Below, piece after piece: positions 3,771 through 64,000 of a stretch of 64,000 nt of DNA. The first letter of the stretch is position 1; each line of letters starts with the position of its first letter. The notes below the pieces were generated by a model. It saw only the letters and a program-made list of their open reading frames with translations. It ran no database searches and was not told the DNA's origin. This stretch comes from Bacteroidaceae bacterium (GTDB lineage: Bacteria > Bacteroidota > Bacteroidia > Bacteroidales > Bacteroidaceae), in assembly GCA_017445925.1 (NCBI GenBank), contig JAFSRW010000021.1:1-64000 (forward strand), read 5' to 3'. The translations under genes and the position numbers were made by a program.

Positions 3771-6278
3771 ATGACAATAAAGTTTTCACCAGAACTAAAT
3801 ACGGTGCTGGCATTCAGCAAGGAAGAAGCCGAACGCCTGCACAACGATAGTGTGACACCCGTGCACCTGCTGCTGGCAATCCTGCGACACAAAGACCAGA
3901 ATCCTGCCAGGGATGCCTTGCTGCAACTACAGCCCGACCTGTCGCTGCTTAAGCAGGAACTGGAGGCTATGGCCAAGCAGAAACAGGTGCTGGTACCGCC
4001 ATCGCTGGCTGACATGGGCTTTGACATGACAGCATCACGCATCCTGAGAGTGTGTGTGCTGGAGGCTAAATCCATGAAGTCGGACTCGATATACATTATT
4101 CATGTACTGTTAGCCATGCTAAAACTGGGTGACAGCGATGCCAGTATGATTCTGGAACGCATGAACATTACCTATCAGGCCATTGCACAAATCCTTAACG
4201 TCAACAATAACGTTAACAATAACGAAAACAATGAGGATGACGAAGAGGAGGATGATATGGAGGCTGCTCAGGGCGATGATACAGGAGCCCTGTCTGTAAT
4301 ACAATTAAAAAAGAAGGCGGGCAGCAACAGCAATACGCCCGTTCTGGACAACTTTGGCACAGACCTGACATTGGCAGCAGCAGAAGGACTGCTCGACCCC
4401 GTGATAGGCCGACAAAAGGAGATAGAGCGTGTGGCACAGATTCTGAGCCGCAGAAAGAAGAACAATCCCATATTGATAGGTCAGCCAGGCGTGGGCAAGA
4501 GTGCCATTGTAGAGGGCTTGGCACAGCGCATAGTGCAGCACAGGGTAAGCCATCTGCTGTGGAACAAGCGTGTGATAGTACTGGATATGGCCAGCGTAGT
4601 GGCTGGAACAAAATACCGTGGACAGTTTGAGGAACGTATGCGTAGCATCATCCTGGAACTGCAGAAGAATCCTGATATCATAGTCTTCATAGACGAGATT
4701 CACACCCTTGTGGGCGCTGGAGCTGCAGCAGGATCGATGGACGCTGCCAACATGATGAAGCCTGCGCTGAGCCGAGGTGAATTCCAATGTATAGGCGCTA
4801 CCACAACGGATGAGTTCCGTAAGTCGATAGAGAAAGACGGTGCATTGGACAGACGTTTCCAGAAGGTAATGGTGGAACCCACAACACCGGAAGAGACGTT
4901 GCTGATTCTGCAAAACCTGAAAGACCGCTACGAGGAGCATCATACCGTTAAATATACACCCGAGGCGCTGGAAGCCTGCGTATATCTGACAGGCAGATAC
5001 GTTACAGAGCGCAGCTTCCCAGACAAGGCCATAGATGCCATGGACGAGGCGGGCAGCCGGGTTCATATCCAAGACATGCCTGTCCCCGATGAAATATCAC
5101 AACTGGAGGGTCACATTGCCGAACTGAACAGGCAGAAGAATGCGGCGGTGAAAGAGCAGCACTTTGAGATGGCTGCCGAATATCGCGACCAGATAAAGAA
5201 CATGGAACATGCCCTGCAGGAGTTGCAGAAGGACTGGGAGGCTCGCATTAAGGACAACCGCCCCGTAGTGGATGAAACGGTTGTGGCTGACGTGATAAGC
5301 ATGATGACGGGTATTCCCGTTCAGCGCATAGGCGAAGAGGAAAACCAGAAGCTGAGGAATCTGGCCAGCAACCTGAAGAATGCTGTAATCGGTCAGGATG
5401 ATGCCATCCAAACCATTGCCAGAAGCATTCAGCGTAGCAGAATAGGCCTGAAAGACCCCAAGAAACCCATAGGTACATTTATGTTTGTAGGTCCTACCGG
5501 CGTGGGAAAGACCTATCTTACCAAGTGTCTGGCACAGGAAATGTTCGGCTCGGCCGACAGCATTATCCGAATAGATATGAGCGAGTACATGGAGAAGCAT
5601 ACCGTTAGCCGTATGGTGGGTGCGCCTCCAGGATACGTGGGATTTGAAGAAGGCGGACAACTGACAGAGAAAGTACGCCGTAAGCCTTACAGCATAGTCC
5701 TGCTGGACGAAATAGAGAAAGCACACCCCGACGTATTCAACATTCTGCTACAGATGATGGACGAAGGAAGAATGACGGACGGCAACGGTTCCACCATCGA
5801 CTTTAAGAACACCATCATAGTAATGACCTCGAACTGCGGAACCAAGCAGATAAGGGATTTCGGCAGGGGCGTAGGATTCCAGAGCGGAACAGATGCCAGC
5901 CAGAACAAGCAGCTGAGCAGAGACCTGGTGCAGAAGGCGCTGAAGAAGCAGTTTGCCCCTGAGTTCCTGAACCGTCTGGATGACATCATCTACTTTGACC
6001 AGCTCAGCGAGGAGAGCATCCAGAAGATTGTGGACATTGAACTGAACCCCCTACTCCACCGAGTGGAAAACTTGGGCGTGACGTTAGAGGTTACACCAGA
6101 GGCGCGCCAGCTGTTGGGCAAGAAGGGTTACGATGTGCAGTACGGAGCCCGTCCGCTGAAGCGTATCCTGCAAACCATGCTGGAAGACCCCTTGTGCGAT
6201 ATGCTGATGCAAGATGAACATAGTACAGCCCTGAAAACAGAAGTTAAAGAAGATAAGATTGTTATTGTGGATAAATAA
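3771..6278 (+). CDS. clpC: ClpC-type AAA+ protease ATPase
   Basis: 835 residues, cytoplasmic. An N-terminal Clp repeat domain (about 1-140) is followed by AAA-1 with Walker [10 protein letters not shown] (237-245), a UVR-type helical segment near 460-480 ([15 protein letters not shown]), and AAA-2 with Walker [10 protein letters not shown] (about 574-582). The UVR segment and short middle domain mark ClpC rather than ClpB. ClpC unfolds substrates and feeds them to ClpP in protein quality control. Between the N-domain and AAA-1 (residues 143-163) is an Asn-rich then acidic linker; its Asn part is encoded by the AACAATAACG/GTTAAC repeat found between genes elsewhere in this window. htpG follows after 15 bases, so the two stress genes are probably co-transcribed from the duplicated promoter or the sigma-54-like site. 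Confidence 0.95.
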
Positions 6279-6293
6279 AATTTCAATATAAAA

Positions 6294-8345: not shown

Positions 8346-8397
8346 AAAAAAATAACAGTCTCTAACCGCTAACCCATAACCGCTAACCGATTTAAGA
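8346..8397. repeat. CTAACCGCTAACC-type repeat between htpG and nadE
   Basis: The 52-base gap consists mostly of CTAACCGCTAACCCATAACC units. These are the complement of the GGTTAGCGGTTAG runs at 28556-28630, 47095-47118 and 60521-60570. Confidence 0.7.
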
Positions 8398-10323: not shown

Positions 10324-10331
10324 ATATATTA

Positions 10332-10398
10332 CGGAAGTTAAAAAGGAAGTTAAAAAGGAAGTTAAAAAGGAAGTTAAAGGGAAGTTAAAGGGAAGAAG
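10332..10398. repeat. 12-base tandem repeat (GGAAGTTAAAAA)
   Basis: Four to five head-to-tail copies of GGAAGTTAAAAA, grading into GGGAAGTTAAA, fill the gap between nadE and the next gene. The related TTTAACTTCCCTTTAACTCC occurs at 45739-45758. The last unit provides the AAGGA just before the next start codon. Confidence 0.85.
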
Positions 10399-10400
10399 GA

Positions 10401-10877: not shown

Positions 10878-10905
10878 CATATAATTTCCTGCAAAAATAA
10901 TACAA

Positions 10906-10949: not shown

Positions 10950-10962
10950 CTTGCTATATTTG
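10932..10962 (+). promoter_or_regulatory. Promoter of the hexuronate operon
   Basis: TATATTTG (10955-10962) is a perfect TAnnTTTG box, with TTG at 10932-10934, 20 bases upstream. It starts about 35 bases before the exuT ATG and overlaps the right arm of the palindrome at 10906-10943. Confidence 0.75.
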
Positions 10963-14476: not shown

Positions 14477-14482
14477 TCTTTA

Positions 14483-14536
14483 AACTATATACTTTAAACT
14501 TTAAACTGTCTTTAAACTATAAACTATAAACTTTAC
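14483..14536. repeat. CTTTAAACTATA simple repeat
   Basis: The gap between the SDR and the second uxuA is built from CTTTAAACT and ATAAACT units. It is one of the several families of low-complexity repeats that occupy gaps in this window. Confidence 0.8.
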
Positions 14537-14538
14537 AT

Positions 14539-15720: not shown

Positions 15721-17141
15721 AAACATTTATGAATAAAGATTTCCTGCTTCAGACAGAGACAGCACAAAAACTGTTTCACGAGCAGGCCGAGAATTTACCT
15801 ATTATCGATTATCATTGCCACCTCAATCCAAAAGAGGTAGCTGAAGACCATCGATTCAGTTCTATTACAGAACTCTGGTTGGGTGGCGACCATTACAAAT
15901 GGCGTGCAATGCGCAGTAATGGCGTAGATGAGAAGTACATCACTGGCAATGCCTCCGACTGGGAGAAGTTCCAGAAGTGGGCCGAGACTATGCCCTACTG
16001 TATGCGCAACCCGCTTTATCATTGGACACACCTTGAACTCCGTACCGCCTTTGGCATTAATAAATTGCTGAATGCCAACACAGCTCGTGAGATTTTCGAG
16101 GAGTGCAACGAGAAACTGAAAGAACCAGGGTTCTCTGCCCGAGGCCTTATGCAGCGTTATAAAGTTGAGGTTGTATGTACCACCGATGACCCTGCCGACA
16201 CCTTAGAGTACCACAAAGCTTACGCTGACAATGTTCAATGTTCAATGATCAATGTTCAATGTACGAAGGTATTACCCACATGGCGTCCTGATAAGGCAAT
16301 GGCCATTGATAATCCTAAGAATTATAGAGCATACATTGAGAAGTTAGGCGAGACGGCAGGACGTAACATTTCTACTTACGAAGAGCTCCTCGATGTCCTT
16401 CAGGAACGCCATGATTTCTTTGCCTCTATGGGTTGCCGACTCTCCGATCACGGCATCAACGAGTTCTATGCCGAAGACTTCACAGAAACGGAGATAAAGC
16501 AAATCTTCCAGAACGTACTGGGAGGCAAGCAACCTACTGCCGACGAGGTAAACAAGTTCCGTTCCGCCCTGCTCCTTGAGTTTGCACGCCAAGACGCCAA
16601 GGCTGGTTGGACACAGCAGTTCCATTATGGTCCTATGCGTAACAATAACTCTCGGATGTTCAGGCAGTTAGGGCCAGATACTGGATATGATAGTATAGGT
16701 ACATTTAACACCGCCGAGGCAATGTCTCGCTTCCTCGACAAACTGGATTCCGAGGGCAATTTAGCCAAGACCATCCTCTATTGCATCAACCCTGCTGACA
16801 ACGAGATGATTGCCACCATGATAGGCAATTTCCAGGAAGGTCCCACTCCCGGCAAGATTCAGTTTGGCAGCGGATGGTGGTTCAACGACCAGCTCGACGG
16901 TATGGAACGTCAGATGAATGCCCTCAGTGTTCTGGGTCTGCTCAGCAGATTCGTTGGAATGCTTACCGATAGCCGTTCGTTCCTCTCCTACCCGCGTCAC
17001 GAGTATTTCCGTCGTTGCCTGTGCAACCTCATCGGACAGGATGTTGAGGATGGCAAATTGCCTGCAGAGGAAATGCCATTCATTGAACAGATGGTAAGAG
17101 ACATTTCTTATTATAATGCAAAGAGGTACTTTAACTTCTAG
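15717..17141 (+). CDS. uxaC: Glucuronate (uronate) isomerase
   Basis: 474 residues, amidohydrolase-like TIM barrel. It converts glucuronate to fructuronate and galacturonate to tagaturonate, the first step of the pathway in this operon. Typical features are [16 protein letters not shown] at about 29-44, the conserved [14 protein letters not shown] (about 154-167), LPTWRPDKA (about 186-194), HYGPMRNNN (about 303-311), and [12 protein letters not shown] near 428. Residues 172-182 ([11 protein letters not shown]) come from 33 bases of the TTCAATG repeat that is common between genes. They sit in the loop just before the conserved LPTWRPDKA strand, where other UxaC proteins have a short variable loop. 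The frame is kept and the protein is otherwise complete, so I judge it functional. Confidence 0.94.
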
Positions 17142-18521: not shown

Positions 18522-18728
18522 TGACCCCCTCTAACCCTTCGGGCCCCAACGTCGCGAATGGGGATTCGCTCCCCTTTGTGGGGCCGCAGCCACATTCAGT
18601 GGCTACTCTAAAGACCCCAGTCGCCCTTTAGGGGGAATAAACTTTGGCTATTGGCCATTGGCCTTTGGCTCATAAGACCCATAAGACCTATAAGACCTAT
18701 AAGACTCATAAACAGTAAACAGTAAACC
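18522..18728. repeat. Mixed repeats between tldD and pmbA
   Basis: The gap holds a C/G-rich block (CCCTCTAACCCTTCGGGCCCC), the palindrome CGCCCTTTAGGGGG (18622-18635), TTGGC-ATTGGCC units, five CATAAGACC/TATAAGACC units (18670-18711) and AAACAGTAAACAGTAAACC. At least three of these families recur elsewhere: 44274, 45779, 56705 and 61562. Confidence 0.8.
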
Positions 18729-22409: not shown

Positions 22410-22470
22410 GTTGTGGAGAAAAGAGAATTGAGTTGTGGAGAAAAGAGGGATGAGAGTTATGGAGATTATC
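22410..22470. repeat. GTTGTGGAGAAAAGAG tandem repeat
   Basis: Two close copies of GTTGTGGAGAAAAGAG and a degenerate third (GAGTTATGGAGATT) lie between the BASS gene and the SDR gene. Confidence 0.75.
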
Positions 22471-27805: not shown

Positions 27806-28555
27806 ATGATCAAATATTTAGCATATTGCCAAGGGGATATTCTTCTCACAACAGAGGGGAGTATCCCCTTTGGTTTGGAGCCTCCCGTCACACTCAAAGA
27901 ATGGAATTATATTACCACACTGCGCTCCGGAGCCGACGAGGTTAAGATTATCCGTCTGGATAATCCCATCGTTGGCAAAGAAGGGCTTCAGATGGTTGGT
28001 TTACGTAAAACACATGCCATTCTTAGCCCCAAAGATTACCAACTGGCAGGCAAGGGAGCCGAACTCATATATTGGGACCAGAACACACGCTATTGCGGTG
28101 TTTGCGGTGGCACCAACAAATGGATGACCAACATCAGCAAGAAATGTACGGAGTGTGGCAAGGAATGGTGGCCCTCAGCAGCTACAGCTATTATTGTACG
28201 CATTCAGCGTGACGACCGTATTCTGTTGGTCAGGGCACGTAACTTCAGAGGGAACCATTACGGCTTGGTGGCAGGTTTCTTAGAGACCGGAGAATCCTTG
28301 GAGCAATGTGTAGCACGCGAGGTACGCGAGGAGGTGGGCATTAACATTAAGAATCTGCGTTATTTTGGCAGTCAACCTTGGCCCTACCCCTTTGGTCTGA
28401 TGGTAGGATTCACCGCAGAATATGACGGAGGCGAATTAAACCTTCAGAAGGAAGAGCTATGCGAGGGCAACTGGTTCACTCGCGAAAACATGCCCGCTAT
28501 TCCAGACAAAGCATCAATAGCCCGTCGTCTAATTGATGACTGGCTTTTAGAATAG
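27806..28555 (+). CDS. nudC: NAD+/NADH diphosphatase NudC
   Basis: 249 residues. The four-cysteine zinc ribbon (CGVCGGTNKW...CTEC, about 98-118) is followed by a Nudix box, GFLETGESLEQCVAREVREEVG (about 156-177), and by the SQPWPYPFGLM motif (about 192-202) that separates NADH diphosphatases from other Nudix enzymes. It cleaves NADH to NMNH and AMP, and in E. coli removes NAD caps from RNA. Its N-terminal domain is intact. Confidence 0.93.
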   Translation: MIKYLAYCQGDILLTTEGSIPFGLEPPVTLKEWNYITTLRSGADEVKIIRLDNPIVGKEGLQMVGLRKTHAILSPKDYQLAGKGAELIYWDQNTRYCGVCGGTNKWMTNISKKCTECGKEWWPSAATAIIVRIQRDDRILLVRARNFRGNHYGLVAGFLETGESLEQCVAREVREEVGINIKNLRYFGSQPWPYPFGLMVGFTAEYDGGELNLQKEELCEGNWFTRENMPAIPDKASIARRLIDDWLLE

Positions 28556-28655
28556 GTTAGCGGTTAGGGGTTAGCGGTTAGAGACAGTTTTTAGAGGTTA
28601 TTGGTTAGAGGTTAGAGGTTATAGAATTTAGTAAACGGTAAACAGTAAACTGGAT
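28556..28655. repeat. GGTTAGCGGTTAG and GTAAACAGTAAAC repeats
   Basis: About eight GGTTAG(A/C)GG-type units (28556-28622), then AGTAAACGGTAAACAGTAAACTGG. The two families recur at 8346, 47095, 60521, 18715 and 61562. Confidence 0.8.
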
Positions 28656-28661
28656 TAAACT

Positions 28662-31331
28662 TTATTTTACCATCTTCTTTCCGTCCTTTATTACAATGCC
28701 CCTTTGTTGTTGAGGATTGACTTTACGTCCAGTAAGGTCGTAAGTGTCATTATTGTGAATTATGAATTGTGAATTATGAATTGATTCCATTCCATCATAA
28801 TAATCAGGCAGGGGCTGATATAGCAGAGAGAAGTTATCAAAGCAGCACCAACTGCTGCCATTGTTTTTGTCGCATTTTAGACCAAAACGCAACGTTCCTT
28901 TCTCCTGCAACGTATAAGCCACCTCATTTGGGTAACAGCCTTCTTCAAACCGTATTCCGGCAGCACGCATACTATGCGGATATCCATTCTGATTATCTAC
29001 TGAGCCATACTGAGCAGCATCGGGCCACTTTTCGGAATACAATGATTTCAGTTTCTTTACCTTATTATTAATGTAAAGATAAGCCTGAATATTTTCTTTA
29101 CCTGAGCGATATGCAGCACCGCCGTCATTGCCTCCTGTACGATAGAACGCATTGCAACGGACAGTATATACACCTGGGCGCATACTGGCGAGCGTCTGAT
29201 ACATGTCAAACGACTTGTTGAATTCCTCGCCACAACCATCACGATAGGTTGGCTCTCCTTCCCATCCATCTTTGGTAGAGAAATCATAGTTGGTAATGAA
29301 GAGTGTCATATCCAGATATTCGCCCTCTTTGGGCACAGCCGATGATGCTTTCAGATACGTTGTTACTGCCGCCTTCAAGTTGTTCAGCGCCGTACTAACC
29401 TGTGATTCTGTAGTGGCTTGTGAAAGTGTGGACTCAGAATTTGCAATTTTCTTCACAAAAGATGTAAGAGCAGAAGATTCCATGCTGGCCTCAACATTCT
29501 TTTCGGCATAAGCTTTCCAGAAAATGTACTCATCGCAGAGTGGCATAATCTTGGCAATGGTATTCTGAATATTCTGCGCTTCTGTAAGTATCGACTTTAT
29601 CTTAGTCTCTGTCAGGCCCTCCGCTTGAGATCTTGCCAAAAGACTCTCAACGTTCTTACGTAACTTTGCGGGAATCAGGTCGTTATGAGTCAGTACCTCA
29701 AGGTGATGAATAGCCTCTTCCAACCTACGGGTCAGAATAGCGCTCTCCCCTGCCTTCTCCAGACTCATATAGTCCATGTTGGGCATCCAACCCTTCTCAT
29801 TATACAGCTCTATACTGTTGGAACCAGCATTGAGGTGAAGCGTCATATTATACTCCTTGAAAGTCGACCAGTTAGAAGTATTCATATTTATCTTGCCCTT
29901 CTCCTCGCCATTCAGTACAACATTTAACGAACGAGCTTCTGCAGAACTACCACAGAAGTGAACCGTGTAATCGGCCTCCTCTGCCACAAAGACATCGCGC
30001 CATAACAACGAGTTGCTCCTCTTTCCACCCAGCCAACTCGCATAAGCACCTCCGCTGGCTGCAGAGTTGGTTTCATAGATAGCAGAACCTACCGACTGAT
30101 TGTTATAGATTTCCTGATAGTCGTGCATAAAACCTGTCTCAGCCTCATAGATATAACGGTCCATACGATTTTCAGCCTCCAACTTGTAGATGCGTGTTCC
30201 ATGTGGTGGAACCACAACGGACAGTGAGCCCTCCTTCTCTCCCAAGTCCTGATTTTCAAAAAGGTCGCGCACCTTCACCTTACCGCCTAAGTCCACCTCG
30301 CTGAAGCTGATGCACATCTCCTCTTCTCTATCAGACGGATTATAGAGTGCCACAGCACGCGTGTTGCCATGCAACGTAAGAATATCCTTAACCAACACGT
30401 ATGTTTCGCCCACATGCTGTATTACGTATGCCTGTAGGCCCAAGGGGTCTTGGTTCAGGGCTATCAGTTCAGGGTTCTTCAGCAACGCCAATGGGCGCTC
30501 CTTAATGGTAGCCATATTGCAGCCAATCAGCAAGGGGCTGGACATAATGCACCACATACCAAAGTGCGTCTTGTCCTCTTCCTCCGTCATAGAACGGCCC
30601 ACCTCAAGCATATCCATATCGTTGTAAGTGCCGCCATAGCAATAAGCTGAAAGGTACAGATTTTCTGCCAGAATACCCTTTACAGAAGCCCAGCCATCGT
30701 AAATATCGCCCGTGGTTCGCCACGAAGTAGAGATATCATGGCACCAAGTACCTGGGTATGCCCATCGGCACAGGTTGTAGCGTACGTCTCGACCTGTATT
30801 CACAATAGCATTGTGGATGGCCGTATATTGCTCCTGCTCATTCAAACTCAAATGACGGCCTCCACAATAATCCACCTTAATGAAGTCGAATTCACACTCC
30901 TTGAAGTAATAGTCGGCATCCAACTGCTCATACCCATACATGCCCACATTAGTGTTTTGCGTATCACCGTTACTGATACTACCGCAAGTACAGTCGCCAG
31001 CATCGCTGTAAATACCTGCCTTAAGACCTTTTGAGTGAATATAATCACTTACCACCTTCAGCCCGTTAGGAAAGCGCTGAGGATGAATGCGCACCTTACC
31101 GTTGGATAAACGACCATACTGAAAGCCGTCATCTATATTAATATACTGATAGCCGGCATCCTTCAGTCCCTGAGAGACCATTGCGTCAGCTTGTCCTTTA
31201 ATAATATTCTCAGAGATATTAACGGCAAAAGTATTCCATGAGCTCCACCCCATGGTCGGGCCTTCAACCTGCGCACTCAGATATAAAATACATGAAGCCA
31301 AATAGCAAGAAAGAAAGAAATAACGTTTCAT
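28662..31331 (-). CDS. GH27 alpha-galactosidase, multidomain, secreted
   Basis: 889 residues. A signal peptide (about 1-20) is followed by a GH27 catalytic TIM barrel with nucleophile D154 (IKVDYCGG) and acid/base D209 (RTTGDIYDGW), then its beta domain (to about 380). Next come a carbohydrate-binding-like module that starts YIYEAETGF (about 390-520), a helical linker (about 535-665) and a second beta-sandwich-like region (about 670-840). The C-terminus, YDLTGRKVNPQQQRGIVIKDGKKMVK in pattern, resembles the T9SS-type tail. It should remove alpha-galactosyl side chains from galactomannans or related polymers. Residues 849-860 (H-N-S-Q-F-I-I-H-N) derive from an AATTCATAATTCACAATTC repeat. It follows the nitroreductase gene by 21 bases. 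An arabinopyranosidase activity is a plausible alternative. Confidence 0.88.
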   Translation of the reverse strand: MKRYFFLSCYLASCILYLSAQVEGPTMGWSSWNTFAVNISENIIKGQADAMVSQGLKDAGYQYINIDDGFQYGRLSNGKVRIHPQRFPNGLKVVSDYIHSKGLKAGIYSDAGDCTCGSISNGDTQNTNVGMYGYEQLDADYYFKECEFDFIKVDYCGGRHLSLNEQEQYTAIHNAIVNTGRDVRYNLCRWAYPGTWCHDISTSWRTTGDIYDGWASVKGILAENLYLSAYCYGGTYNDMDMLEVGRSMTEEEDKTHFGMWCIMSSPLLIGCNMATIKERPLALLKNPELIALNQDPLGLQAYVIQHVGETYVLVKDILTLHGNTRAVALYNPSDREEEMCISFSEVDLGGKVKVRDLFENQDLGEKEGSLSVVVPPHGTRIYKLEAENRMDRYIYEAETGFMHDYQEIYNNQSVGSAIYETNSAASGGAYASWLGGKRSNSLLWRDVFVAEEADYTVHFCGSSAEARSLNVVLNGEEKGKINMNTSNWSTFKEYNMTLHLNAGSNSIELYNEKGWMPNMDYMSLEKAGESAILTRRLEEAIHHLEVLTHNDLIPAKLRKNVESLLARSQAEGLTETKIKSILTEAQNIQNTIAKIMPLCDEYIFWKAYAEKNVEASMESSALTSFVKKIANSESTLSQATTESQVSTALNNLKAAVTTYLKASSAVPKEGEYLDMTLFITNYDFSTKDGWEGEPTYRDGCGEEFNKSFDMYQTLASMRPGVYTVRCNAFYRTGGNDGGAAYRSGKENIQAYLYINNKVKKLKSLYSEKWPDAAQYGSVDNQNGYPHSMRAAGIRFEEGCYPNEVAYTLQEKGTLRFGLKCDKNNGSSWCCFDNFSLLYQPLPDYYDGMESIHNSQFIIHNNDTYDLTGRKVNPQQQRGIVIKDGKKMVK

Positions 31332-37400: not shown

Positions 37401-37914
37401 CCTGCACAAACACAATATCAACCTGCTCACCTACTTGTAACGGTAAAGTCTGTTCTGATAGCTTCTTGCGCGTCACTACGGATTGCGCTAAAGCCTGAGG
37501 GTGAGTGACTATGTAAAGTTGAAAAGCCCCCTCCGTCTCCCCCTTTAGGGGAGTGACTTTTGAAGATTTATTGTTTATGGCGCTTAGGACTTCGGTACGT
37601 AGGATCTCGTTGCCGGCATCACGTTGTCCGTATTTAATGGCGCGCTTAAAACTGCTGGGGAAAAAAAGCACCTTTTCATCGCCCAAAACCTGCGTAAGGT
37701 CGTGATAGAAATAGCCTGCCTGCTCCTCATCGTCCAAAATAAACACACAGACCGATGAAATGGTGTTTATAAGTGATGAGAATACCAAGGGGGCGGCACT
37801 CTCATGAAGACCGTCTATCTGTATTACACCCACATCAGTCCTTTGCAAGGCTGCACGCAGCTTGCCAACTGAAGGATGATGTGAGAAAATTGTCTGAAGC
37901 TCTTGTATCTTCAT
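34489..37914 (-). CDS. mfd: Transcription-repair coupling factor Mfd
   Basis: 1141 residues. The N-terminal UvrB-homology region comes first, then the RNA polymerase-interacting domain (EIGDYVVHLDHGVGKFGGL, about 460-480). The RecG-like translocase has Walker A GDVGFGKTE and Walker B DEEQ, then the TRG region and a C-terminal D7 domain. It removes stalled RNA polymerase and recruits UvrA. Two short segments, residues about 119-130 (T-P-L-K-G-E-T-E-G) and about 330-341 (K-A-S-P-V-P-S-Q-G-G), are encoded by palindromic repeats like those between genes, and both lie in variable loops of the N-terminal region. An E/K-rich segment near 290-310 is low complexity. It ends a tight operon and overlaps the upstream gene by four bases. 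Confidence 0.95.
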   Translation of the reverse strand: MKIQELQTIFSHHPSVGKLRAALQRTDVGVIQIDGLHESAAPLVFSSLINTISSVCVFILDDEEQAGYFYHDLTQVLGDEKVLFFPSSFKRAIKYGQRDAGNEILRTEVLSAINNKSSKVTPLKGETEGAFQLYIVTHPQALAQSVVTRKKLSEQTLPLQVGEQVDIVFVQETLISFGFKRVDYVYEPGQFAVRGSILDVYSYSCEYPYRIDFFGDEVDSIRTFEVQTQLSKTKLQQISIVPELCSEEEQNESFLSFLPKETLLVMHDPTFVAESVQIAWEEGFCRQAVTVDSEENASSEEKEKPLEKEKMLVEPQLFCKELLNFRRIELKASPVPSQGGVNFTFHTHQQPVFHKNFNLVFQSFSKYLEDGYQLYILADSQKQAARLESIFQDQQTGITFTPVDHTIHAGFVDDDLKICLFTDHQIFDRFHKYNLRSQQTRNGKVALTLKELQQFEIGDYVVHLDHGVGKFGGLVRIPNGDKMQEVIKIIYNHDDVVFVSIHALHKVSKYKGKEGEPPRISTLGTGAWERMKERTKTKIKDIARDLIKLYSRRREEKGFSYSPDSFMQHELEASFLYEDTPDQLKATQDVKSDMERARPMDRLVCGDVGFGKTEVAIRAAFKACVDNKQVALLVPTTVLAYQHYRTFTARLKDFPVKVEYLSRARSSAKTKEILEGLKNGTVNIVIGTHKLISKSVQFKDLGLLIIDEEQKFGVSTKEKLRQMKVNVDTLTLTATPIPRTLQFSLMGARDLSVIQTPPPNRYPIQTQLSVFSSEVIAEAINFEMSRNGQVFFVNNRISNLPDLEALIHKHVPDARVAIAHGQMPPETLENIMMGFANYDYDVLLSTTIIESGLDIPNANTIIINSAQNFGLSDLHQMRGRVGRSNKKAFCYLLSPPMSSLNIDARRRLQAIENFSDLGSGIHIAMQDLDIRGAGNLLGAEQSGFIADLGYEAYQKILSQAVKELRNDEFQDLYKEEVKAGNITSGTDFVEECIIESDLPMSFSEEYVPTSSERMLLYRELDGLERDEDVDQFRQRMIDRFGPVPHEGEELIGVVKLRRLGRYFGCERITLKTGRMRMQFISNPDSAFYDSEAFHKVIAFATTNAHICRVDNSKNQFKLLISDVNSVEQANALLSQMQSVHL

Positions 37915-44190: not shown

Positions 44191-44287
44191 TTATTTCAAC
44201 GATAACGTAACGTTAACGATAACTTTTCACTGTTAATTGTTAATTATCGATTGCCAATTGTCAATTGTCAATTCCCCCTAAAGGGGG
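44191..44287. repeat. Mixed repeats between rsmE and the nucleoside transporter
   Basis: GATAACG/GTTAACG units (about 44200-44223), TTAATTGTTAATT (44232-44244), CAATTGTCAATTGTCAATTC (44254-44273), then the palindrome CCCCCTAAAGGGGG (44274-44287). The palindrome runs up to the stop codon of the transporter gene. Confidence 0.85.
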
Positions 44288-45596: not shown

Positions 45597-45690
45597 GAAG
45601 TTATCGCTTCGCTTGGAAGTTATCGGGCTTCCAGCCCTTGGAAGTTATCGGCCTTTCGGCCTTGGAAGTTATCGCCAGCTTCGCCGGCTT
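45597..45690. repeat. GAAGTTATCG units separated by different small palindromes
   Basis: GAAGTTATCG occurs at 45597-45606, 45616-45625, 45641-45650 and 45665-45674. Between them are different short stem-loops: GGGCTTCCAGCCC, CGGCCTTTCGGCC and GCCAGCTTCGCCGGC-like. A related unit, GAGTTATCGCTTCG, is at 823-810 on the other strand. This is not a CRISPR array, because the spacers are palindromes and the spacing varies. Confidence 0.75.
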
Positions 45691-45730
45691 GGACATCACT
45701 TTAGACTTCATGTTAGCACGTGTATACTAT

Positions 45731-45800
45731 CGTCCCTTTAACTTCCCTTTAACTCCTATTCATAATTATCAATTCCCTCCCCCTAAAGGGGGCCGGGGGT
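45731..45800. repeat. TTTAACTTCCCTTTAACTCC and CCCCCTAAAGGGGG repeats
   Basis: A TTTAACT unit run (45738-45758), AATTATCAATTCCC, then the palindrome CCCCCTAAAGGGGG (45779-45792). The palindrome borders the rlmI-like gene. Confidence 0.8.
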
Positions 45801-55630: not shown

Positions 55631-55631
55631 A

Positions 55632-56738: not shown

Positions 56739-59117
56739 CTATAATTTAATTTTCACTTCCTTACCTGAATACTCTACGCGCTGCGTATTCCCATCTGGGG
56801 TAATGATATTGAAGCTACGCTGCTCCAGCATACCTGGATAGTTACCTTTGCGCTCACCTATGGTTAGGGTATGGGTGCGTTCCGACCAACTGATGGGAAT
56901 GGTAGCATAGATGCCCTTTTCATAGTTGTAGTTGTCGCCCTCATCCTCATAAAGTGTGAAGGTGGCATCTGCACCAGGATATACACGCAGTTCCAGATTG
57001 TCCCACTTCTTCTCCCCTACATATTGCATAACGGGCCCCATGGGTACAATGCTTCCTGCACGAACAAACATCGGCACGCGGTTCAACTGAGTCTCCTGCG
57101 TCACAGTCTGTCCTCCCTGATAGCGCTTACCCGTCCAGAAATCGTACCAGCTAGCTCCCTTAGGCAAATACTTTGTCGCTGTCTTAGTCTCAGTCCAATT
57201 AACACCTCTTACATCTTCCTTCTGACTTCTTACATCATTTCTGTTCCATCCCGTCATAGCATCGGTGCGGATAATCTTTTCCTCTGTGTACTGAGGGTTC
57301 AGGATGGGAGCTGCCAGAATGCTACGTCCAAACATAAACTCGTCTGTCATATCCCACACTTGGCGGTCTTGAGCAAAGTCGCTGAACAACGGACGCATAT
57401 AGCTATCGTTGTTGCTGGTCACCTGCCAAGCTGTACTATATAAATAAGGTAAGAACTGGTAGCGCAGTTGGATAGCCTCTTCTATAGCATCATATACGGG
57501 CTCTCCCTTCTGACCGAACTGCCAGATTTCTCGTGGTGCATCAGCACCATGACTACGGAATACAGGGCAGAAGAGTCCGTACTGCATCCAACGCACATAC
57601 AATTCCTGGAACTGCGGATTGCGTGGAGCCGAACCGCCACCACGGGTATTGTAAGCACCGCAGAAGAAACCGCCAATATCGGTATTGAAGTTGGGGTTGC
57701 CAGTCAGAGAGAAACTCAGTCCTGCTGGCACCTGTTTACGCAGCATATCCCACGATGAGTTTACATCACCGCTCCACATGTTAGAACCGTAGTGCTGCTG
57801 GCCCGCAAAACTGCTTCGCGTCATGATGAAGACTCTCTTCTCTAATTGTACATTATTAATTGTTAATTGCTCATTGCGCTGAGCTTGGTAAACACCACGG
57901 ACGGTTTCCAGGGGGAAAGCATTACGCAGAGAACGCCATGTACCCCCTTCCTGACCAGCCTTGTGAGCGTATGTAGCAAGAGAGCCATCAAAGCAGTCGG
58001 GGTCGGTTGAATCCATCCACCATGCATCTGTGCCATAATCGTACAGCGTCTTCAGGTACTTCCAGTAGATGTCTCTTGCCTCTGGGCTGAAAGCATCATA
58101 TACCCTAACGCCTGATGGATAATCCTTACGTGGGGGCCAGAAGGTCAGTCCGCTCTGGGGCCAAGTTTCAAACTCAAAAAGCAAATCCTTTGCCTCCAAC
58201 TCCTTGAAGGCTTTGGTCTTGGGACCGAAGCTAGCCCATATTGAAATCATGAAGTGGCCATTCAGCTTGTGTACCTCGTCAATCATCTGTCGTCCGTTGG
58301 CAAATTCTTCACAAAGGAAATCCATGCCGTTCCACAGATAGTTAGAGCCCCAGTACTGCCAGTCCTGAATGATACCATCCAGAGGCACACCCAGTTTACG
58401 GTACTGCTGTACAATGCCCAGTGTCTCGTTGGCCGTCTTGTAGCGCTCCTTGCTCTGCCAATAGCCGTAGGTCCACAAGGGGAACATAGGCACATCACCT
58501 GTAAGGAAACGCATCTGCGCAATTACTCCATCGGCTGAGCCGCCATACATGAAGTAGTAGTCGATAGCCTCGCCCACCTCGGATGTCAGCGACATACCGT
58601 TCTCATCATCATCAAACTGCGTAGGCGAATAGTTGTCCCAGTACAAGCCCCACCCTTTTATGCTTTGGATGACGCTCTGGAAATCCTCCAGATTCGACTG
58701 TTCCATACGTTTGTGCTCGCCTCTGCGGTTTATCTTCCCGTTCTGGATGGTCCCCAGACCGTAGATAGCTTCATCCTTATCCAGTTTGAATACCTGCTGA
58801 ATGCCATTCCATTCGCCCGCATTCAAGTCCATACCCTTCTCCTGCAGCAGCACTTTGCCTTTGGCTGTCAGGAAAGTCAGACACTTCGATGCAGCATCCT
58901 GCTTCACCGTCAGTTCACTACTTTTCCAAGTATTTCCACTATGGGCCACAGCCACCTGCTGAGGTTTTGCTATCACCACAAGGCTCTTGGGTTGCTTACC
59001 ATCCGCAGACTTTACTACATGTACAATACTAGGCGTGATAAACTCAATCTTAGTCTCTTGACACCAGACAAGCGTTCCGCTCATCAAAGCTACTAATGCG
59101 AGGAATAGGCGTTTCAT
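56739..59117 (-). CDS. GH31 glycosidase (alpha-glucosidase or alpha-xylosidase), secreted
   Basis: 792 residues. The signal peptide covers about 1-19. The GH31 N-terminal beta domain comes next, then the barrel with the nucleophile Asp near 368 (WWMDSTDPD) and acid/base Asp near 523 (FRSHGADAPRE), and two C-terminal beta domains. The barrel sequence TYGYWQSKERYKT is common in alpha-xylosidases acting on xyloglucan, but alpha-glucosidase cannot be excluded. Residues about 414-426 (N-E-Q-L-T-I-N-N-V-Q-L) and 626-638 (N-D-V-R-S-Q-K-E-D-V-R) are encoded by repeats of intergenic type (AATTGTTAATT and AAGAAGTCAGAAGG). Both lie in surface-like segments. It lies 28 bases after the carboxyspermidine dehydrogenase gene, maybe in one transcript. 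Confidence 0.86.
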   Translation of the reverse strand: MKRLFLALVALMSGTLVWCQETKIEFITPSIVHVVKSADGKQPKSLVVIAKPQQVAVAHSGNTWKSSELTVKQDAASKCLTFLTAKGKVLLQEKGMDLNAGEWNGIQQVFKLDKDEAIYGLGTIQNGKINRRGEHKRMEQSNLEDFQSVIQSIKGWGLYWDNYSPTQFDDDENGMSLTSEVGEAIDYYFMYGGSADGVIAQMRFLTGDVPMFPLWTYGYWQSKERYKTANETLGIVQQYRKLGVPLDGIIQDWQYWGSNYLWNGMDFLCEEFANGRQMIDEVHKLNGHFMISIWASFGPKTKAFKELEAKDLLFEFETWPQSGLTFWPPRKDYPSGVRVYDAFSPEARDIYWKYLKTLYDYGTDAWWMDSTDPDCFDGSLATYAHKAGQEGGTWRSLRNAFPLETVRGVYQAQRNEQLTINNVQLEKRVFIMTRSSFAGQQHYGSNMWSGDVNSSWDMLRKQVPAGLSFSLTGNPNFNTDIGGFFCGAYNTRGGGSAPRNPQFQELYVRWMQYGLFCPVFRSHGADAPREIWQFGQKGEPVYDAIEEAIQLRYQFLPYLYSTAWQVTSNNDSYMRPLFSDFAQDRQVWDMTDEFMFGRSILAAPILNPQYTEEKIIRTDAMTGWNRNDVRSQKEDVRGVNWTETKTATKYLPKGASWYDFWTGKRYQGGQTVTQETQLNRVPMFVRAGSIVPMGPVMQYVGEKKWDNLELRVYPGADATFTLYEDEGDNYNYEKGIYATIPISWSERTHTLTIGERKGNYPGMLEQRSFNIITPDGNTQRVEYSGKEVKIKL

Positions 59118-59145
59118 TGGGTAATTCTTTAAGGGTTGTTTTATT

Positions 59146-60381: not shown

Positions 60382-60424
60382 AATTATAATGTTTTATGTT
60401 TTCCTTCTTTCTAATATCAGCATG

Positions 60425-60432
60425 CAAAGATA
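60425..60432 (-). promoter_or_regulatory. Promoter of the carboxyspermidine dehydrogenase gene
   Basis: TATCTTTG (minus 60432-60425) matches the TAnnTTTG box, 43 bases before the start codon. No convincing -33 element was identified. Confidence 0.5.
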
Positions 60433-60482
60433 AGCATTTTCTGTAAGACAGAAAACATATTGCCAACAAAATTAAAGAAAAA

Positions 60483-60520
60483 ACAAAAAAAGGCATCTGC
60501 TTTCGCAAACGCCCTTTTTG
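60483..60520 (-). terminator. Terminator downstream of the P5-like gene
   Basis: GGCGTTTGC-GAAA-GCAGATGCC (minus strand) with two mismatches, followed by a run of T. It would end the transcript of the genes at 60593-64000. Confidence 0.55.
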
Positions 60521-60604
60521 CTGGTTAGAGGTTAGCGGTCCAAAACGGTTAGAGGTTAGTGGTTAGCGCTAATAATTTTCAACTTTCAACTTTCAATTTT
60601 CAAC
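60521..60604. repeat. GGTTAGAGGTTAG and TTTCAACTTTCAAC repeats
   Basis: GGTTAGAGGTTAGCGG units, then TTTTCAACTTTCAACTTTCA-type units up to the stop of the P5-like gene. The last residues of that protein (V-E-N, then TGA) are read from the repeat itself. Confidence 0.8.
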
Positions 60605-61054
60605 TACTAAGGCGAAGCCTTTCAGCATCGCCACCGCTGGGAGAGCCTTACCGTTTTCCACTACCGCCATTGCGTAACCTATCAGTAGCCATTGGGTAGG
60701 ATGCTCTTGCGGGGAACCTAACACCTTGTTGGGCGAGATACCCGTGTAGTCCGAAACATGACGGATGTACGCCTCTGTGTTATTCTCCTTGGCTGGAGCC
60801 CATCGGGACACAATGTCCCTGATGGTCTTCAACCCATACTTCCCGTAGTAGGTTCGGCAGAGAATCACAAAGGCGGCTCTCCACCCATATTCCATACTAT
60901 AAAACTGGACAAATTCAGCATCTCCCTTGGGAGAAGAGTTGTTCCCGTTCCCGTTAACGTTCCCGTTACCCGAAGGGTTTATTTGTCCTTGCCATTTATC
61001 CTTTGAACGTCTAATGTTCAATGGATTGTTATTCCTAATTCCTCTTGGTTCCAT
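60593..61054 (-). CDS. Phage structural protein P5-like (lysozyme-like) protein
   Basis: 153 residues. The start MEPRGIRNNNPLNIRRSKDKW and the core FYSMEYGWRAAFVILCRTYYGKYGLKTI, then APAKENNTEAYIRHVSDYTG, match the small proteins annotated as phage structural protein P5-like (PRD1 P5 name). They often lie near Bacteroidota replication or defence loci, but their role is unclear. Residues 27-43 (S-G-N-G-N-V-N-G-N-G-N-N-S-S) come from a CGTTAACGTTCCCGTTACCC repeat and replace a short variable segment after WQGQ. There is no signal peptide. Confidence 0.72.
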   Translation of the reverse strand: MEPRGIRNNNPLNIRRSKDKWQGQINPSGNGNVNGNGNNSSPKGDAEFVQFYSMEYGWRAAFVILCRTYYGKYGLKTIRDIVSRWAPAKENNTEAYIRHVSDYTGISPNKVLGSPQEHPTQWLLIGYAMAVVENGKALPAVAMLKGFALVVEN

Positions 61055-61055
61055 A

Positions 61056-61160
61056 ATCGGCCCCTCTCCCTAACCCTCCCCCAAATGGGAGGGGACTGCA
61101 AGCAGGGGTATGGGCAGTCTTGATTATTATTTTTGAAGTTAGCACTTAGAAGTTAAAAGG
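61056..61160. repeat. C/G-rich palindromes and AAGTTA repeats
   Basis: CCCTCCCCCAAATGGGAGGGG (61072-61092) is a near-perfect palindrome. TTTGAAGTTAGCACTTAGAAG and CTCCCCTTTGGGGGAG (61164-61179) follow. They flank the start of the P5-like gene and overlap the 3' end of the gene at 61139. Confidence 0.8.
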
Positions 61161-61561
61161 CCCTCCCCTTTGGGGGAGCGGGGAGAGGGGCCCTTTTTGT
61201 TCACATTTATCGCTGTTGAATTTGGGAACGCCACACTGTAAGCGGCATCCAAGGCTTTCAGGTTCACCCTATAGAAGCTGATGCCTAAACGCACCGCCAC
61301 TATAGCCCGTAGAAACTCGCGGTGCCTACGCGGATAGAGCATAGGCGTTGGAAGTTCATCCCAACCCTCCTGCGGCTCATCGTCGACGGCAGCCTGATGG
61401 CATACTTTCCAGATAAATTCATCATTGGCTTCATGGCCAAACCATGACTTCAGTACGTTACGGATGCAGTATCGCTTGTGTTGCACCCACAGCAGTCGCC
61501 TTGTGTGCTCCAGCCGTAGCCAGAGCTCCACAAAGCACTCTTGAGTATTGTCTAATTCCAT
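61139..61561 (-). CDS. Small unknown protein with repeat-derived C-terminus
   Basis: 140 residues, no signal peptide, not recognised. The body (about 1-118) is helical and rich in Trp, Arg and His (HTRRLLWVQHKRYCIRNVL, FIWKVCHQAAVDDE). From about residue 119 onward (N-K-K-G-P-S-P-R-S-P-K-G-E-G) the sequence is read through the C/G-rich palindrome at 61164-61179, and the stop codon lies in an AAGTTA repeat. The original C-terminus may be shorter. It lies between the P5-like gene and the DUF3987 gene in the same direction, which suggests one operon. Confidence 0.7.
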   Translation of the reverse strand: MELDNTQECFVELWLRLEHTRRLLWVQHKRYCIRNVLKSWFGHEANDEFIWKVCHQAAVDDEPQEGWDELPTPMLYPRRHREFLRAIVAVRLGISFYRVNLKALDAAYSVAFPNSTAINVNKKGPSPRSPKGEGLLTSKC

Positions 61562-61698
61562 TTTAGTTTACTGTTTACTGTTTACCGTTTACTGTTAATA
61601 ATGTTCAATGCTCAATGTTCAATGCTCAATGTTCAATGTTCAATGTTCAATGCTCAATGTTCAATGTTCAATGTTGAAAATGACACTCATGACACACT
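61562..61698. repeat. GTTTACTGTTTACC, TTCAATG and ACTCTAAACTCT repeats
   Basis: AGTTTACTGTTTACTGTTTA (61565-61596), then about twelve ATGTTCAATGCTCA units (61600-61676), then ACACTCTAAACTCTACACTC (61691-61725), which enters the 3' end of the DUF3987 gene. The TTCAATG unit is the one inside uxaC. Confidence 0.9.
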
Positions 61699-64000
61699 CT
61701 AAACTCTACACTCTAAACTCTCAACTTTACGATACCGTCCTGCTTCCGTCTGCACTACGAGGCCCTGCTTCTTCCAGTTCTTCAGCATCTGACGGACGCT
61801 ATTGCGCGAGACGCTGGCACCCTTCACGCTAACGCTGTGCTGGTAGGCGCCCTCGATACCGAACTCCACGTCCAGACGCTCAAAGATTGTGTCATTCTTT
61901 CCCATGCGATGGCGGTCGCCGCCTCCTGCATAGTCGCGACTCATAAAAGCATTCTCTATGCGGTCACGGAAGAAGTACAGAGCCGTCTCTATCAGATAGT
62001 CGGCCACCACATCGTAGATGTCCAATAGTTGTGGTGTCTGTGCCTTCTGAAGCATAGTCTTCCATAGGTTAGGATTCGATTTCAGCTGCTTCTCGGCACC
62101 GCTGTAACCGTGTTTCTGAATCAGTTGCTCAGCCACCTTGCAGAGCATGATGCAACAGGTCATTCGCTGAGCCGTCACACAGACGCGGAAGCGCTGACGG
62201 GCACGGGTGCGGTCATCGTTCTTCATTGTTTCCAGACGCACCTGTTCCAGCCATTCACGACCCCTTGCCTCCAGTTTCGGCAGCTCCACCGTTCCCTGCA
62301 TCAGCGGTAGCAAATGGGCTATCTGCTGAATACGTTCCTGCTGGCGGTCGGTCAGCACATAAGGCTTATCCTCCAGCGGCGCGAAGGTGTTGTCCGGCGT
62401 GCGGGCAATGGCGATACGGCTCTGGAATCCGTCGGTATAATTCGATACTACGCGGTAGAGGGCGTCAGGCGTTCCGCACATTGTTACGTTCCATAGCAGG
62501 TGATCAATGTGAACGTTCACGGCATCGGCACTCTTGGCTTCGCGGTCGTACTTCGAGCCATCGTAGCTCTGACGCAGCATGACGGAGAAGTCGCTCATGG
62601 CCGACCTCCACTTCTGAGCCACCGTATCGGCCTCAGGCGTAAACGAGAAGGCGTGTTTGCCCTCCGTATTCGCCAGTCGTTCAGCCAGATTGGCAACGGT
62701 GTTATTCAGCGTCAGAAAGCGCACGGGTAACTTCGGTTCCTCGGGCTGCTCCTTCTTGTTCTTGGCAGCCCGCTTCTTGGCACGCCACTCATCCTCCTGT
62801 TGCTGATACATGGTGTCCAATGCCTTAACCTCACCTAGCCAGGCATCTATCACGGGGTCAATGCTGCCCTTGCCGCTGGCAAAGTCACCTGCTATGTAGC
62901 TGATAAGGTTGAGCCCCTTCTTCTGGCCGTGTACATCCAGTTGCACGCCTGTTGCCAGCATACCGATAACCGGGCAGATAGCTGTCATTACAGGCATTGA
63001 AAGCGTAGGACCGACGGCCTCTATCGATTCGCGAACACCCTGCGGCATACGCGGCAGACGGTTGTAATAGAAGCGCTCATCCTCCTGCACGGCCTCCTCC
63101 AAACCCTCACTGCCAGTGGCGTCAATGCCTTCGTTCATGCGGTCGCGATGTACCTGAAAGAGCACATCCTTCAGCCGCTTAGGCATCTGTGTACGCTTCT
63201 CTGATAAGGCCGAGTCGATGCACTTCATCTTCTGTGTCTCAGAGAACCCGTCGTAACAAGGAATGACGGCGTCCATCAGCTCGCGGTCGAAGCCGCAGAT
63301 ATGGCGCAGATTCACGGCCAGCTCGAAGGTCAGTACGTCGCGATTCGACTTGATAGGCTCCTTGCCCTCGTTGTAGAGTTCCCACCATTTACGGATAATT
63401 TCCGCATAGGGAATGCCGTTGTAGCTGGTCGGGTAAAGTTGAGAGTTTAGAGTTGAGGGTTTAGAGTCAGTGGTTAGTTGAGAGTTGTCAGTGGCGCCAG
63501 CCGATTCTTCACTCTTCACTCTTTCTTGATCCCCTTGAACTCCTTGAACTTTTTGAACTTCTTCCAGCTCAAAGAGCTGAGGAGAGAGGTACACCAGCTC
63601 TGCTGCCGTAGTAGTGTAGAACACGCGGGTGATGTCCTTTGCGTTATCATCGAACTTCACGCCTAAGAGTTCGCTAGCCCACTTCAGGTTTTCCTCCTGA
63701 CTGAGTTCTGGGCGGCGACGGAAAGCCAAGTGATAGCCCTTTGTTGCCGAGTGTTCCAGCATCTGCAAGCCCAGCTCGTCCTTCTTGCTCAGCACCAGTT
63801 GGGGTACTGACTTCAAGCGCTCGTCGAGCCACGCTTTCTGTTCCTCAGCCGAAAGTTCCTTAGGTGCTACAAAGTCGATATCCATACCCACGGAATTGCT
63901 CATGCGTGTACTGCCCTTCAGCGAACCATCCTCGTTGGGCAGGCAACTATAGTTCATCTGTACCAACTTACGCTTCAGTTCTACCTCGCCCTCACGGATG
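61699..64000 (-). CDS. VirE-N/BT4734-like and DUF3987 protein, N-terminus cut by window end
   Basis: At least 767 residues; the frame stays open to 64000, so the true start lies beyond the window. A BT4734/VirE N-terminal-like domain (VGMDIDFVAPKELS, then GYHLAFRRRPELSQ and GVKFDDNAKDITRVFY) covers the first 150 residues or so, followed by a linker. A middle domain with YNGIPYAEIIRKWWELYN and a DUF3987 domain with DYLIETALYFF at its end follow. Such proteins recur in Bacteroidota next to small hypothetical and phage-like genes and have no known function; a primase or helicase relation has been suggested by annotation only. The linker (63436-63575) is made of at least three intergenic repeat families. 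It may form an operon with the two genes downstream. Confidence 0.75.
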   Translation of the reverse strand, partial: IREGEVELKRKLVQMNYSCLPNEDGSLKGSTRMSNSVGMDIDFVAPKELSAEEQKAWLDERLKSVPQLVLSKKDELGLQMLEHSATKGYHLAFRRRPELSQEENLKWASELLGVKFDDNAKDITRVFYTTTAAELVYLSPQLFELEEVQKVQGVQGDQERVKSEESAGATDNSQLTTDSKPSTLNSQLYPTSYNGIPYAEIIRKWWELYNEGKEPIKSNRDVLTFELAVNLRHICGFDRELMDAVIPCYDGFSETQKMKCIDSALSEKRTQMPKRLKDVLFQVHRDRMNEGIDATGSEGLEEAVQEDERFYYNRLPRMPQGVRESIEAVGPTLSMPVMTAICPVIGMLATGVQLDVHGQKKGLNLISYIAGDFASGKGSIDPVIDAWLGEVKALDTMYQQQEDEWRAKKRAAKNKKEQPEEPKLPVRFLTLNNTVANLAERLANTEGKHAFSFTPEADTVAQKWRSAMSDFSVMLRQSYDGSKYDREAKSADAVNVHIDHLLWNVTMCGTPDALYRVVSNYTDGFQSRIAIARTPDNTFAPLEDKPYVLTDRQQERIQQIAHLLPLMQGTVELPKLEARGREWLEQVRLETMKNDDRTRARQRFRVCVTAQRMTCCIMLCKVAEQLIQKHGYSGAEKQLKSNPNLWKTMLQKAQTPQLLDIYDVVADYLIETALYFFRDRIENAFMSRDYAGGGDRHRMGKNDTIFERLDVEFGIEGAYQHSVSVKGASVSRNSVRQMLKNWKKQGLVVQTEAGRYRKVESLECRV

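Follow-up and report, generated by a model that had tools for sequence, protein, structure and literature searches.

The stretch analyzed here (the window) comprises 64,000 nucleotides, positions 1 to 64,000 of contig JAFSRW010000021.1, one contig of a 3.3-Mb genome (assembly GCA_017445925.1; 100 contigs, 84% complete) from a rumen bacterium of the Bacteroidaceae, and it is marked by short repeats that make up the gaps between genes and also lie in frame inside several conserved protein-coding genes. In uxaC, the insert at 16229..16262 (plus strand; residues 171-182) consists of one 32-nt unit with five CATT cores on the minus strand, followed by an extension, and can be written as one (CATTGAR)4CATT unit with one spacer change. 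A TAACGT/TAACAA repeat of 6-nt pitch occupies the clpC linker after the Clp_N domain (4196..4232, plus strand). The remaining cases lie on the minus strand, namely, a palindrome, CCCCTAAAGGGGG, in a loop of mfd (37531..37569; residues 116-128), an array of the AATTATG class in the C-terminal tail of a GH27 protein (28752..28783), an AATT-core array and a GAAGATG-like repeat at sites 1 and 2 of a GH31 protein (57852..57877 and 57204..57236, respectively), and three places in a DUF3987 gene. The last are a loop with an AAACTCT-class array (63434..63467), a second stretch of loop (63506..63563) with AAGAGTG-class heptamers (63506-63523) and 9-nt CTTGAACTC repeats (63525-63563), and the C terminus, where an AAACTCT-class array runs into the gap (61696..61726). 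Two small genes on the same strand are also affected: palindrome CCCCTTTGGGGG lies inside a 140-aa gene (61165..61176) and a GTTCCC/GTTAAC repeat of 6-nt pitch inside a 153-aa gene (60941..60970).

A prior reading of this DNA made from its letters alone (the sequence-only reading) had listed in-frame repeats in most of these genes, and its list stands for uxaC, clpC, GH27, both GH31 sites, one mfd site, and DUF3987, as does its statement that a repeat family reaches into the 140-aa gene. It does not stand for a second mfd insert, since comparison with 29 relatives showed only residues 116-128 and a 3-aa block at 296-298 as insert blocks in the window, nor for a case in a "P5-like" gene, which could not be confirmed because the gene is not identifiable. 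Calling these segments inserts is also only partly apt: the reading frame is kept throughout, but some inserts, as in uxaC, take the place of host residues, and in clpC replacement is as likely as insertion because the linkers of relatives are similar in length and different in content.

The gaps of the window were said to be built from about eight families of short repeats. That they are made of short repeats is borne out, these being direct repeats mostly of 7-nt period: a period scan recovered 22 arrays with a score of at least 13, 10 of them with period 7, where 10 order-3 Markov sequences gave means of 0 to 0.1 per period and 0.2 overall. The vocabulary is larger than was supposed: a 1.0-Mb sample of the genome contains 52 heptamer classes. 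Several gaps can be compared with L050, a relative collinear with the window around uxaC (relatives are denoted here by L-numbers for loci and G-numbers for genomes, 121 genomes having been surveyed). The (CTAACCN) array at 8346..8397 is 100% identical in L050, the array of the 12-nt unit GGAAGTTAAAAA at 10333..10389 is shorter there by one unit, and the TAAACTT/TAAACTA arrays at 14477..14538 differ. In a composite island at 18522..18728, made up of a GC-rich composite element and TTGGCCA, CATAAGACC, and AAACAGT arrays, L050 keeps the final AAACAGT array, and the rest is missing. A relative of the GC-rich element (GCGAATGGGGATTCGCTCCCC...CTCTAAAGACCCCAG; gap 18522-18640) was noted in the DUF3987 loop of L413 (genome G063). 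Other gaps hold GGTTAGN and AAACAGT arrays (28555..28654); a TAACGAT repeat and an AATTGTC array with palindrome CCCCCTAAAGGGGG adjoining (44191..44287); a 25-nt CTTGGAAGTTATCGGCCTTCCAGCC repeat, an TCCCTTTAACT repeat, and again palindrome CCCCCTAAAGGGGG (45612..45800); GGTTAGN and TTTCAAC arrays, the latter extending into the 153-aa gene (60523..60605); and a GTTTACT array next to a long AATGTTC array (76 nt; CATTGAR on the minus strand) (61566..61675).

Sixty-one stretches of the same genome, totaling 1,003,706 bases with the window included and with open reading frames (ORFs) called by a simple procedure, yielded 318 arrays, 213 in gaps and 105 in genes, at densities of 221 per 100 kb of gap and 12 per 100 kb of coding sequence. 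A period of 7 or 14 characterizes 130 of the 213 gap arrays and 62 of the 105 gene arrays, giving 192 heptamer arrays. Of the 62 in genes, 27 keep a distance of more than 25 aa from either end of an ORF that is at least 200 aa long, and the others are at C termini or at starts that may have been miscalled. The heptamer arrays draw on a small, shared set of units. Those in gaps fall into only 46 of 1170 possible classes, against a mean of 117 (minimum 108 in 500 draws) expected from the composition of array-free gaps, and, of those in genes, 53 of 62 have a unit class that also occurs in gaps, where 2.9 would be expected from coding composition (and no more than 10 in any of 2000 draws). Gene copies are also biased in orientation: for classes in which just one strand is free of stops, 36 of 45 gene arrays have that strand in sense, and the gap arrays split 43 to 36; classes without stops on either strand account for 6 of the 62 arrays in genes. 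The sister genome G099 (72% complete), the nearest of the 121 by mfd, clpC, and GH31 (90 to 94% identity), has 23 of its 36 arrays in classes of the window's genome, and the corresponding fractions are 25/45 in L048-L079, 6/11 in L080-L091, and 5/19 in L092-L127, loci that surround uxaC and are a nonrandom sample. Shared ancestry of array sites may inflate this fraction in near relatives. Its fall with distance (23/36 to 5/19) disfavors a universal bias of the generator as the source of the vocabulary. Array density declines over the same series, from 192 arrays in 1.00 Mb of the window's genome to 36 in 0.28 Mb of G099, 45 in 0.57 Mb of L048-L079, 11 in 0.21 Mb of L080-L091, and 19 in 0.69 Mb of L092-L127. 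Period-22 arrays are frequent in L048-L079 (32 of 139 arrays), and one such array is present in the window at 22404-22465.

The arrays have a preferred size. Gene heptamer arrays peak at 31 to 34 nt (32 of 62), and gap heptamer arrays peak at 26 to 27 nt (25 of 130) and 31 to 34 nt (47 of 130); by span, 158 period-7 arrays divide into 24 of 20 to 26 nt, 93 of 27 to 33 nt, 24 of 34 to 40 nt, and 17 longer ones, short imperfect arrays being underdetected. Places where an exact tetramer recurs at 7-nt pitch (runs of N excluded) number 131 for four copies, 52 for five, 5 each for six and seven, and 5 for more; at other pitches such places are rarer (at 6 nt, 42, 9, and 3 with four, five, and more copies), and the series at 7-nt pitch in G099 is 20, 12, 2, and 1. 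The conserved block is just four bases long in 38 of the 52 five-copy places, a count biased by the definition itself; of 95 arrays defined by score, 77 have a conserved block of at least four phases, where random placement would give about 45. The commonest unit, (CATTGAR)4CATT, is found at 41 loci among the exact matches listed, 28 of them exactly 32 nt long, and end phases are concentrated in several classes (13 of 22 for CATT, 9 of 11 and 8 of 9 for AACT), others being less clear. At L227, a five-copy unit with a CATC core occurs twice, at 4301 and 4402, 101 bases apart, with nearly free spacers (ATC, AGA, AAA, AAA). A preferred array size, often of five tetramer copies at 7-nt pitch (32 nt), is a new observation; our literature search, with scant coverage of subscription sources, found, among the papers listed, no account of fixed-size heptad units or of repeat replacement at one protein loop.

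The same loop of a protein carries different repeats in different species, as in uxaC, whose named relatives are mostly metagenome-assembled genomes of rumen or gut Bacteroidales (labeled Bacteroidaceae, Prevotellaceae, or Muribaculaceae). The segment from CTTDDP to WRPDK is 22 aa long in most sequences. Its loop contains CAATGTT units in the window and L048, AAATCGT units in L049, L012, L013, and L016, GCAAATG units in L062, and paired palindromes (L070, L082, and L077) or decayed forms in other kin. In L050, where the neighboring genes are 90 to 99% identical to those of the window, the insert is absent. On a uxaC tree built without the loop from 96 distinct sequences, 94 of them scored with state labels set by hand, at least 9 changes of presence and at least 12 changes of state are required. 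A span of 34 nt is common to the window, L048, and L049 despite differing units, which amounts to rewriting at constant length.

Loop A of mfd behaves similarly. It holds a palindrome with C and G runs in the window, a CTCTCAA array in the sister sequence L129 (93%) and in L130, two heptamer families in L137, and no insert in 74 of 90 sequences, with 16 state changes on the 90; across five Mfd loops, the changes number 16, 11, 16, 8, and 12 (score-based labels, "other" included). Of the 90 sequences selected from the genus, 42 have inserts of at least 8 aa (77 segments); of 29 controls, none does. The 90 are not a random sample, being the window, its 29 other best matches, and 60 sequences chosen as near full length, of which 4 have split matches and are thus likely to contain large inserts, other partial or split matches having been excluded; the controls are the best matches of a search at the level of the order, 28 from other families and one from another genus of the same family. 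Periodicity or a palindrome was detected in 22 of the 77 inserts and in 9 of 770 control segments from the same genes, leaving 55 inserts with neither by score.

Alignment by eye shows the same behavior at GH31 site 1, which in relatives has AATTAAC, TCAACTT, or AATTGTC arrays or nothing; at GH31 site 2, with several repeat kinds likewise; and in the clpC linker, which has AAATTCA, AATGGTC, or ACAACAG arrays or palindromes, with other heptamers or palindromes in L202, L203, L205, L208, L213, and L214. By-eye reading was used here because an automated test for segments of at least 8 aa is nearly empty for these two proteins (one in GH31, none in clpC), their inserts being shorter or common in the alignment. 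The GH27 tail site has a different repeat in L054, the one relative compared. All 12 DUF3987 loops examined are distinct and 9 have an array or palindrome by score; these sequences are the best match per genome in a family with paralogues and hence are homologues rather than established orthologues. In LepA, the situation of uxaC is reversed, with an in-frame, palindrome-bearing insert in L050 and none in the window. A motif search of the genome sample recovered 26 copies resembling secretion tails (that of L042 has a weak TIGR04183 match, below the cutoff), in which the loop after an LSGR(K/R) motif is 5 aa long in 13 and longer in the other 13; heptamer arrays, of 6 classes in all, occur in 8 of the 26 loops, and two longer loops resemble palindrome sequence. 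A pairwise survey against G099 and L050 covered 61 gene pairs and gave 12 rows with indels of at least 4 aa, 4 heptameric, 1 a palindrome by score (itself an 18-nt tandem), and 7 other, among which C/G-run sequence can be recognized by eye in 4 (2 in LepA and 2 in L373). The loops of uxaC, mfd, GH31, clpC, and DUF3987 are recurrent slots that hold different repeats, palindromes, or nothing across species. The sequence-only reading had specified that the same segments with unrelated codons at the same sites in relatives would mark them as old loops; relatives instead carry nothing or a different repeat. This difference in repeat at one loop between species points to a hitherto undescribed process by which short repeats are copied and exchanged for one another.

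Unit abundance is specific to lineages. With one mismatch allowed, the CATTGAR unit gives 128 overlapping hits in the window's genome and 3 in G099; elsewhere, it gives 5 in G119, 6 in G122, 40 in G061, 73 in G015, 33 in G103, and 23 in G106, and there are no hits in 80 of the 121 genomes, single zeros being unreliable since the genomes are incomplete. A reversed, uncomplemented control gave 0 hits in the window's genome, 3 in G062, and 5 in G112, possibly from another unit class. At the boundaries of the arrays, target-site duplication is at the chance level (1 of 156 arrays at k=4, against 1.3 expected), and no flank consensus was found, the flanks within one class sharing few 8-mers; those of the AACATTG class share 8-mers in 5 and 4 of 231 pairs against 1.1 expected, paralogous tails included. 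For 9 arrays only could both flanks be located in a relative, several having a different unit of about the same length there; the array at L037:9121 is 32 nt long in both the window's genome and G099, with two base changes 14 nt apart.

Two candidate drivers were considered. Genes for REP-associated tyrosine transposases (RAYTs), REP denoting repetitive extragenic palindromic sequences, are present in the genus, with matches in 51 of the 121 genomes (44 above the cutoff); the window's genome, at 84% completeness, has no match to this family (PF01797). Strict C/G-run palindromes with arms of at least 8 were absent from 10 RAYT loci, weaker ones escaping such a search. The lack of a match in this genome and the presence of other palindromes at RAYT loci speak against RAYTs as drivers of its palindromes. 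At 4 of the 10 loci (L258-L260 and L264), CCAGCC...GGCTGG palindromes are found, which may be a cognate repeat. Reverse transcriptases (PF00078) are present in 37 of the 121 genomes, with one weak hit in the window's genome, and this survey of presence yielded no driver.

The explanation that we consider best, at a probability of roughly 55%, is a pool of short repeat units that are copied, rewritten in place, expanded, and, in genes, filtered by reading frame. The pool would comprise direct-repeat units, on the one hand, and REP-type C/G-run palindromes, on the other. The former would fall into about fifty classes, often with five tetramers at 7-nt pitch separated by three loosely fixed spacer bases over 32 nt, other classes having four copies of a 5- to 7-base core over 26 to 28 nt. 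Units would be copied to new places in either orientation, be overwritten in place by other units, and sometimes grow by steps of 7 or 14 nt. Within genes, mainly stop-free, frame-keeping copies in loops, linkers, and tails would survive, and an occupied slot could be refilled or rewritten, such that related species come to differ in the repeat that it holds. The spreading or copying of short repeats, tolerated where the protein allows it, as put forward by the sequence-only reading, is supported. Since we could find neither a target duplication nor a flank consensus nor a linked transposase, copying is most likely templated by existing copies, by way of microhomology-primed template switching or of ectopic conversion in the course of repair or replication. 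A bolder form of this proposal, which we advance tentatively and regard as having clearly less than even odds, is that the units are "heptad pentads" of fixed size (five tetramers at a pitch of 7 nt, 32 nt in length, of many sequence types) that constitute an undescribed class of dispersed DNA, expand in lineage-specific bursts, overwrite each other as well as palindromic REPs at slots that persist, continually rewrite core-protein loops, and might be written or copied by a dedicated enzyme whose footprint is about 32 nt.

Several observations weigh against the copied-pool explanation or narrow it. Five copies are both cap and mode in some classes but cannot be a rule, because the four-copy class is larger than the five-copy class (131 and 52 places). 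Of 159 arrays, 19 are perfect at 14 nt and not at 7, against 1.5 expected, and this alternation looks like ordinary higher-order slippage. One spacer variant is overused in the CATTGAR unit, if weakly (P of 0.02 on 28 loci), only 10 of the 192 arrays are identical over their whole length at two places, and 11 of the 62 arrays in genes are of classes in which both strands contain stops. Among the 9 arrays with both flanks located, none had in the relative a cleanly empty site that would mark a very recent insertion; no instance of copying from a donor to a recipient was seen; and insertion is not proven for each in-gene case. In uxaC, part of the pattern may stem from descent with rewriting and from exchange of alleles, because near-clade inserts have the flank AYAxE in common with those of a distant clade. 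The DUF3987 loop is less special than it appears, because arrays and palindromes also occur elsewhere in these genes (29 and 55, respectively, of 509 control segments outside the loop, or at most 84 of 509).

Among the rivals, we judge the following two unlikely, to about the same degree. The first takes the arrays to be ordinary long simple-sequence repeats, each born by local slippage that favors 7 nt, with selection keeping the frame in genes. Seven is the dominant period here, as in other genomes according to PMC4679880, which cites Mrazek 2007, and the 14-nt patterns just described and some long arrays of 11 to 15 copies are of the kind that slippage would leave; nevertheless, the units are not derived from local sequence, given the 53 of 62 gene arrays in a gap class, copy number drops tenfold from five to six rather than declining steadily, end phases are concentrated within several classes, and one unit has about 40 times more hits than in the sister genome. 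The second holds that two independent things meet in the same loops through tolerance alone, RAYT-moved REP-type palindromes and heptamer microsatellites. REPs within genes, many of them for replication and repair, are known in several species (PMC3733652), and the genus does have RAYT-type genes; against this stand the missing RAYT match in the (incomplete) genome, the different sequence of the strict palindromes at the 10 RAYT loci fetched, and the preferred size and shared heptamer vocabulary, which would be left unexplained. More doubtful still is the idea that selection has spread the arrays as functional sites at which a multimeric protein with 7-nt pitch binds DNA or RNA. The favored number of copies, the pitch, and the clustering of substitutions in phases (77 of 95 arrays) are in keeping with it, as is the regulatory role proposed for TAACTGA repeats in PMC4679880; nonetheless, the core tetramers are many and unrelated (CATT, AACT, AATT, AAAC, ATAA, CATC, and AGCC), and the arrays occur in both orientations and within coding loops. 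That the loops are ordinary fast-evolving linkers that match repeats by chance or composition is very improbable, for although many relatives have an acidic, variable linker in clpC, a gene for which this may still be the account, and most mfd inserts have no repeat signature by score, it is refuted for uxaC, mfd, and GH31. Against it stand the excess of that signature in mfd inserts over control segments, the lack of inserts of at least 8 aa in the Mfd controls, and the presence of the uxaC insert in the window and its absence from collinear L050, with LepA showing the reverse.

Returning to the copied-pool reading, its units recall several known systems without coinciding with any of them. 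Rickettsia palindromic elements (RPEs), the precedent named by the sequence-only reading, comprise several dispersed repeat families in frame in unrelated genes (PMC10969869, citing Ogata 2000, 2002). That precedent fits the in-frame placement in unrelated genes seen here but not the heptamer units: RPEs are palindromic, about 150 bp long, and encode a conserved peptide, whereas here direct repeats peak at 26 to 34 nt and one loop carries different families in different species. REPs have been described inside replication and repair genes (PMC3733652), and the C/G-run palindromes of this genome resemble them in being numerous and mostly intergenic, with some in frame in genes, including mfd; strict hairpins with C4 and G4 runs number 20 in 1.0 Mb, 15 in gaps and 5 in genes. 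Only these palindromes fit the description of a REP as a 20- to 40-bp palindrome with many, mostly intergenic copies, and even so the GTAG or CGTC tag of the two large REP groups lies near the ends of only 2 of the 20, and a cognate RAYT flanked by the same repeat was found neither in this genome, at 84% completeness, nor, for strict C/G-run palindromes, at the 10 RAYT loci of the genus. Cyanobacterial short tandemly repeated repetitive (STRR) sequences, TAACTGA repeats, and long simple-sequence repeats are kinds of heptanucleotide tandem repeat. As PMC4679880 describes heptanucleotide repeats, they are mostly intergenic and sporadic in the Bacteroidetes, with some in ORFs, chiefly near the ends. 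The arrays studied here share their tandem 7-nt units; they differ in lacking an open-ended slippage length and a locally drawn unit, in having many classes, with internal, frame-keeping copies in conserved proteins and a unit that differs per relative, and in that the unit TAACTGA accounts for 0 of 192 arrays. Miniature inverted-repeat transposable elements (MITEs) are short, nonautonomous, and dispersed and can become fused in frame, as PMC10969869 mentions, but the heptad units are direct, not inverted, repeats, target-site duplication is at the chance level, and terminal inverted repeats were not found in flanks that were searched only for shared 8-mers. These are small dispersed repeats that act like RPEs or REPs in genes, with heptad units that lack tested hallmarks of RPEs, MITEs, TAACTGA repeats, and open-ended slippage.

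Two other features of the window were noted, a cobalamin riboswitch aptamer at 2567-2757 on the minus strand (89.9 bits) and, in the first gap (127-280), inverted repeats composed of AACAGGTAACAC.

Insertions in protein loops are usually treated as slow, random indels. In this instance, one rumen genus appears to supply protein loops from a shared pool of noncoding repeats, at a rate high enough for close species to differ at the same loop of core proteins such as Mfd, UxaC, and ClpC (and LepA, in one comparison). The genus thus provides a natural series for loop tolerance and for the entry of new peptide sequence into conserved proteins. More broadly, bacterial heptamer repeats may be copied units rather than products of slippage, and the long-standing puzzle that they pose becomes testable because of the preferred size and the 7-nt pitch.

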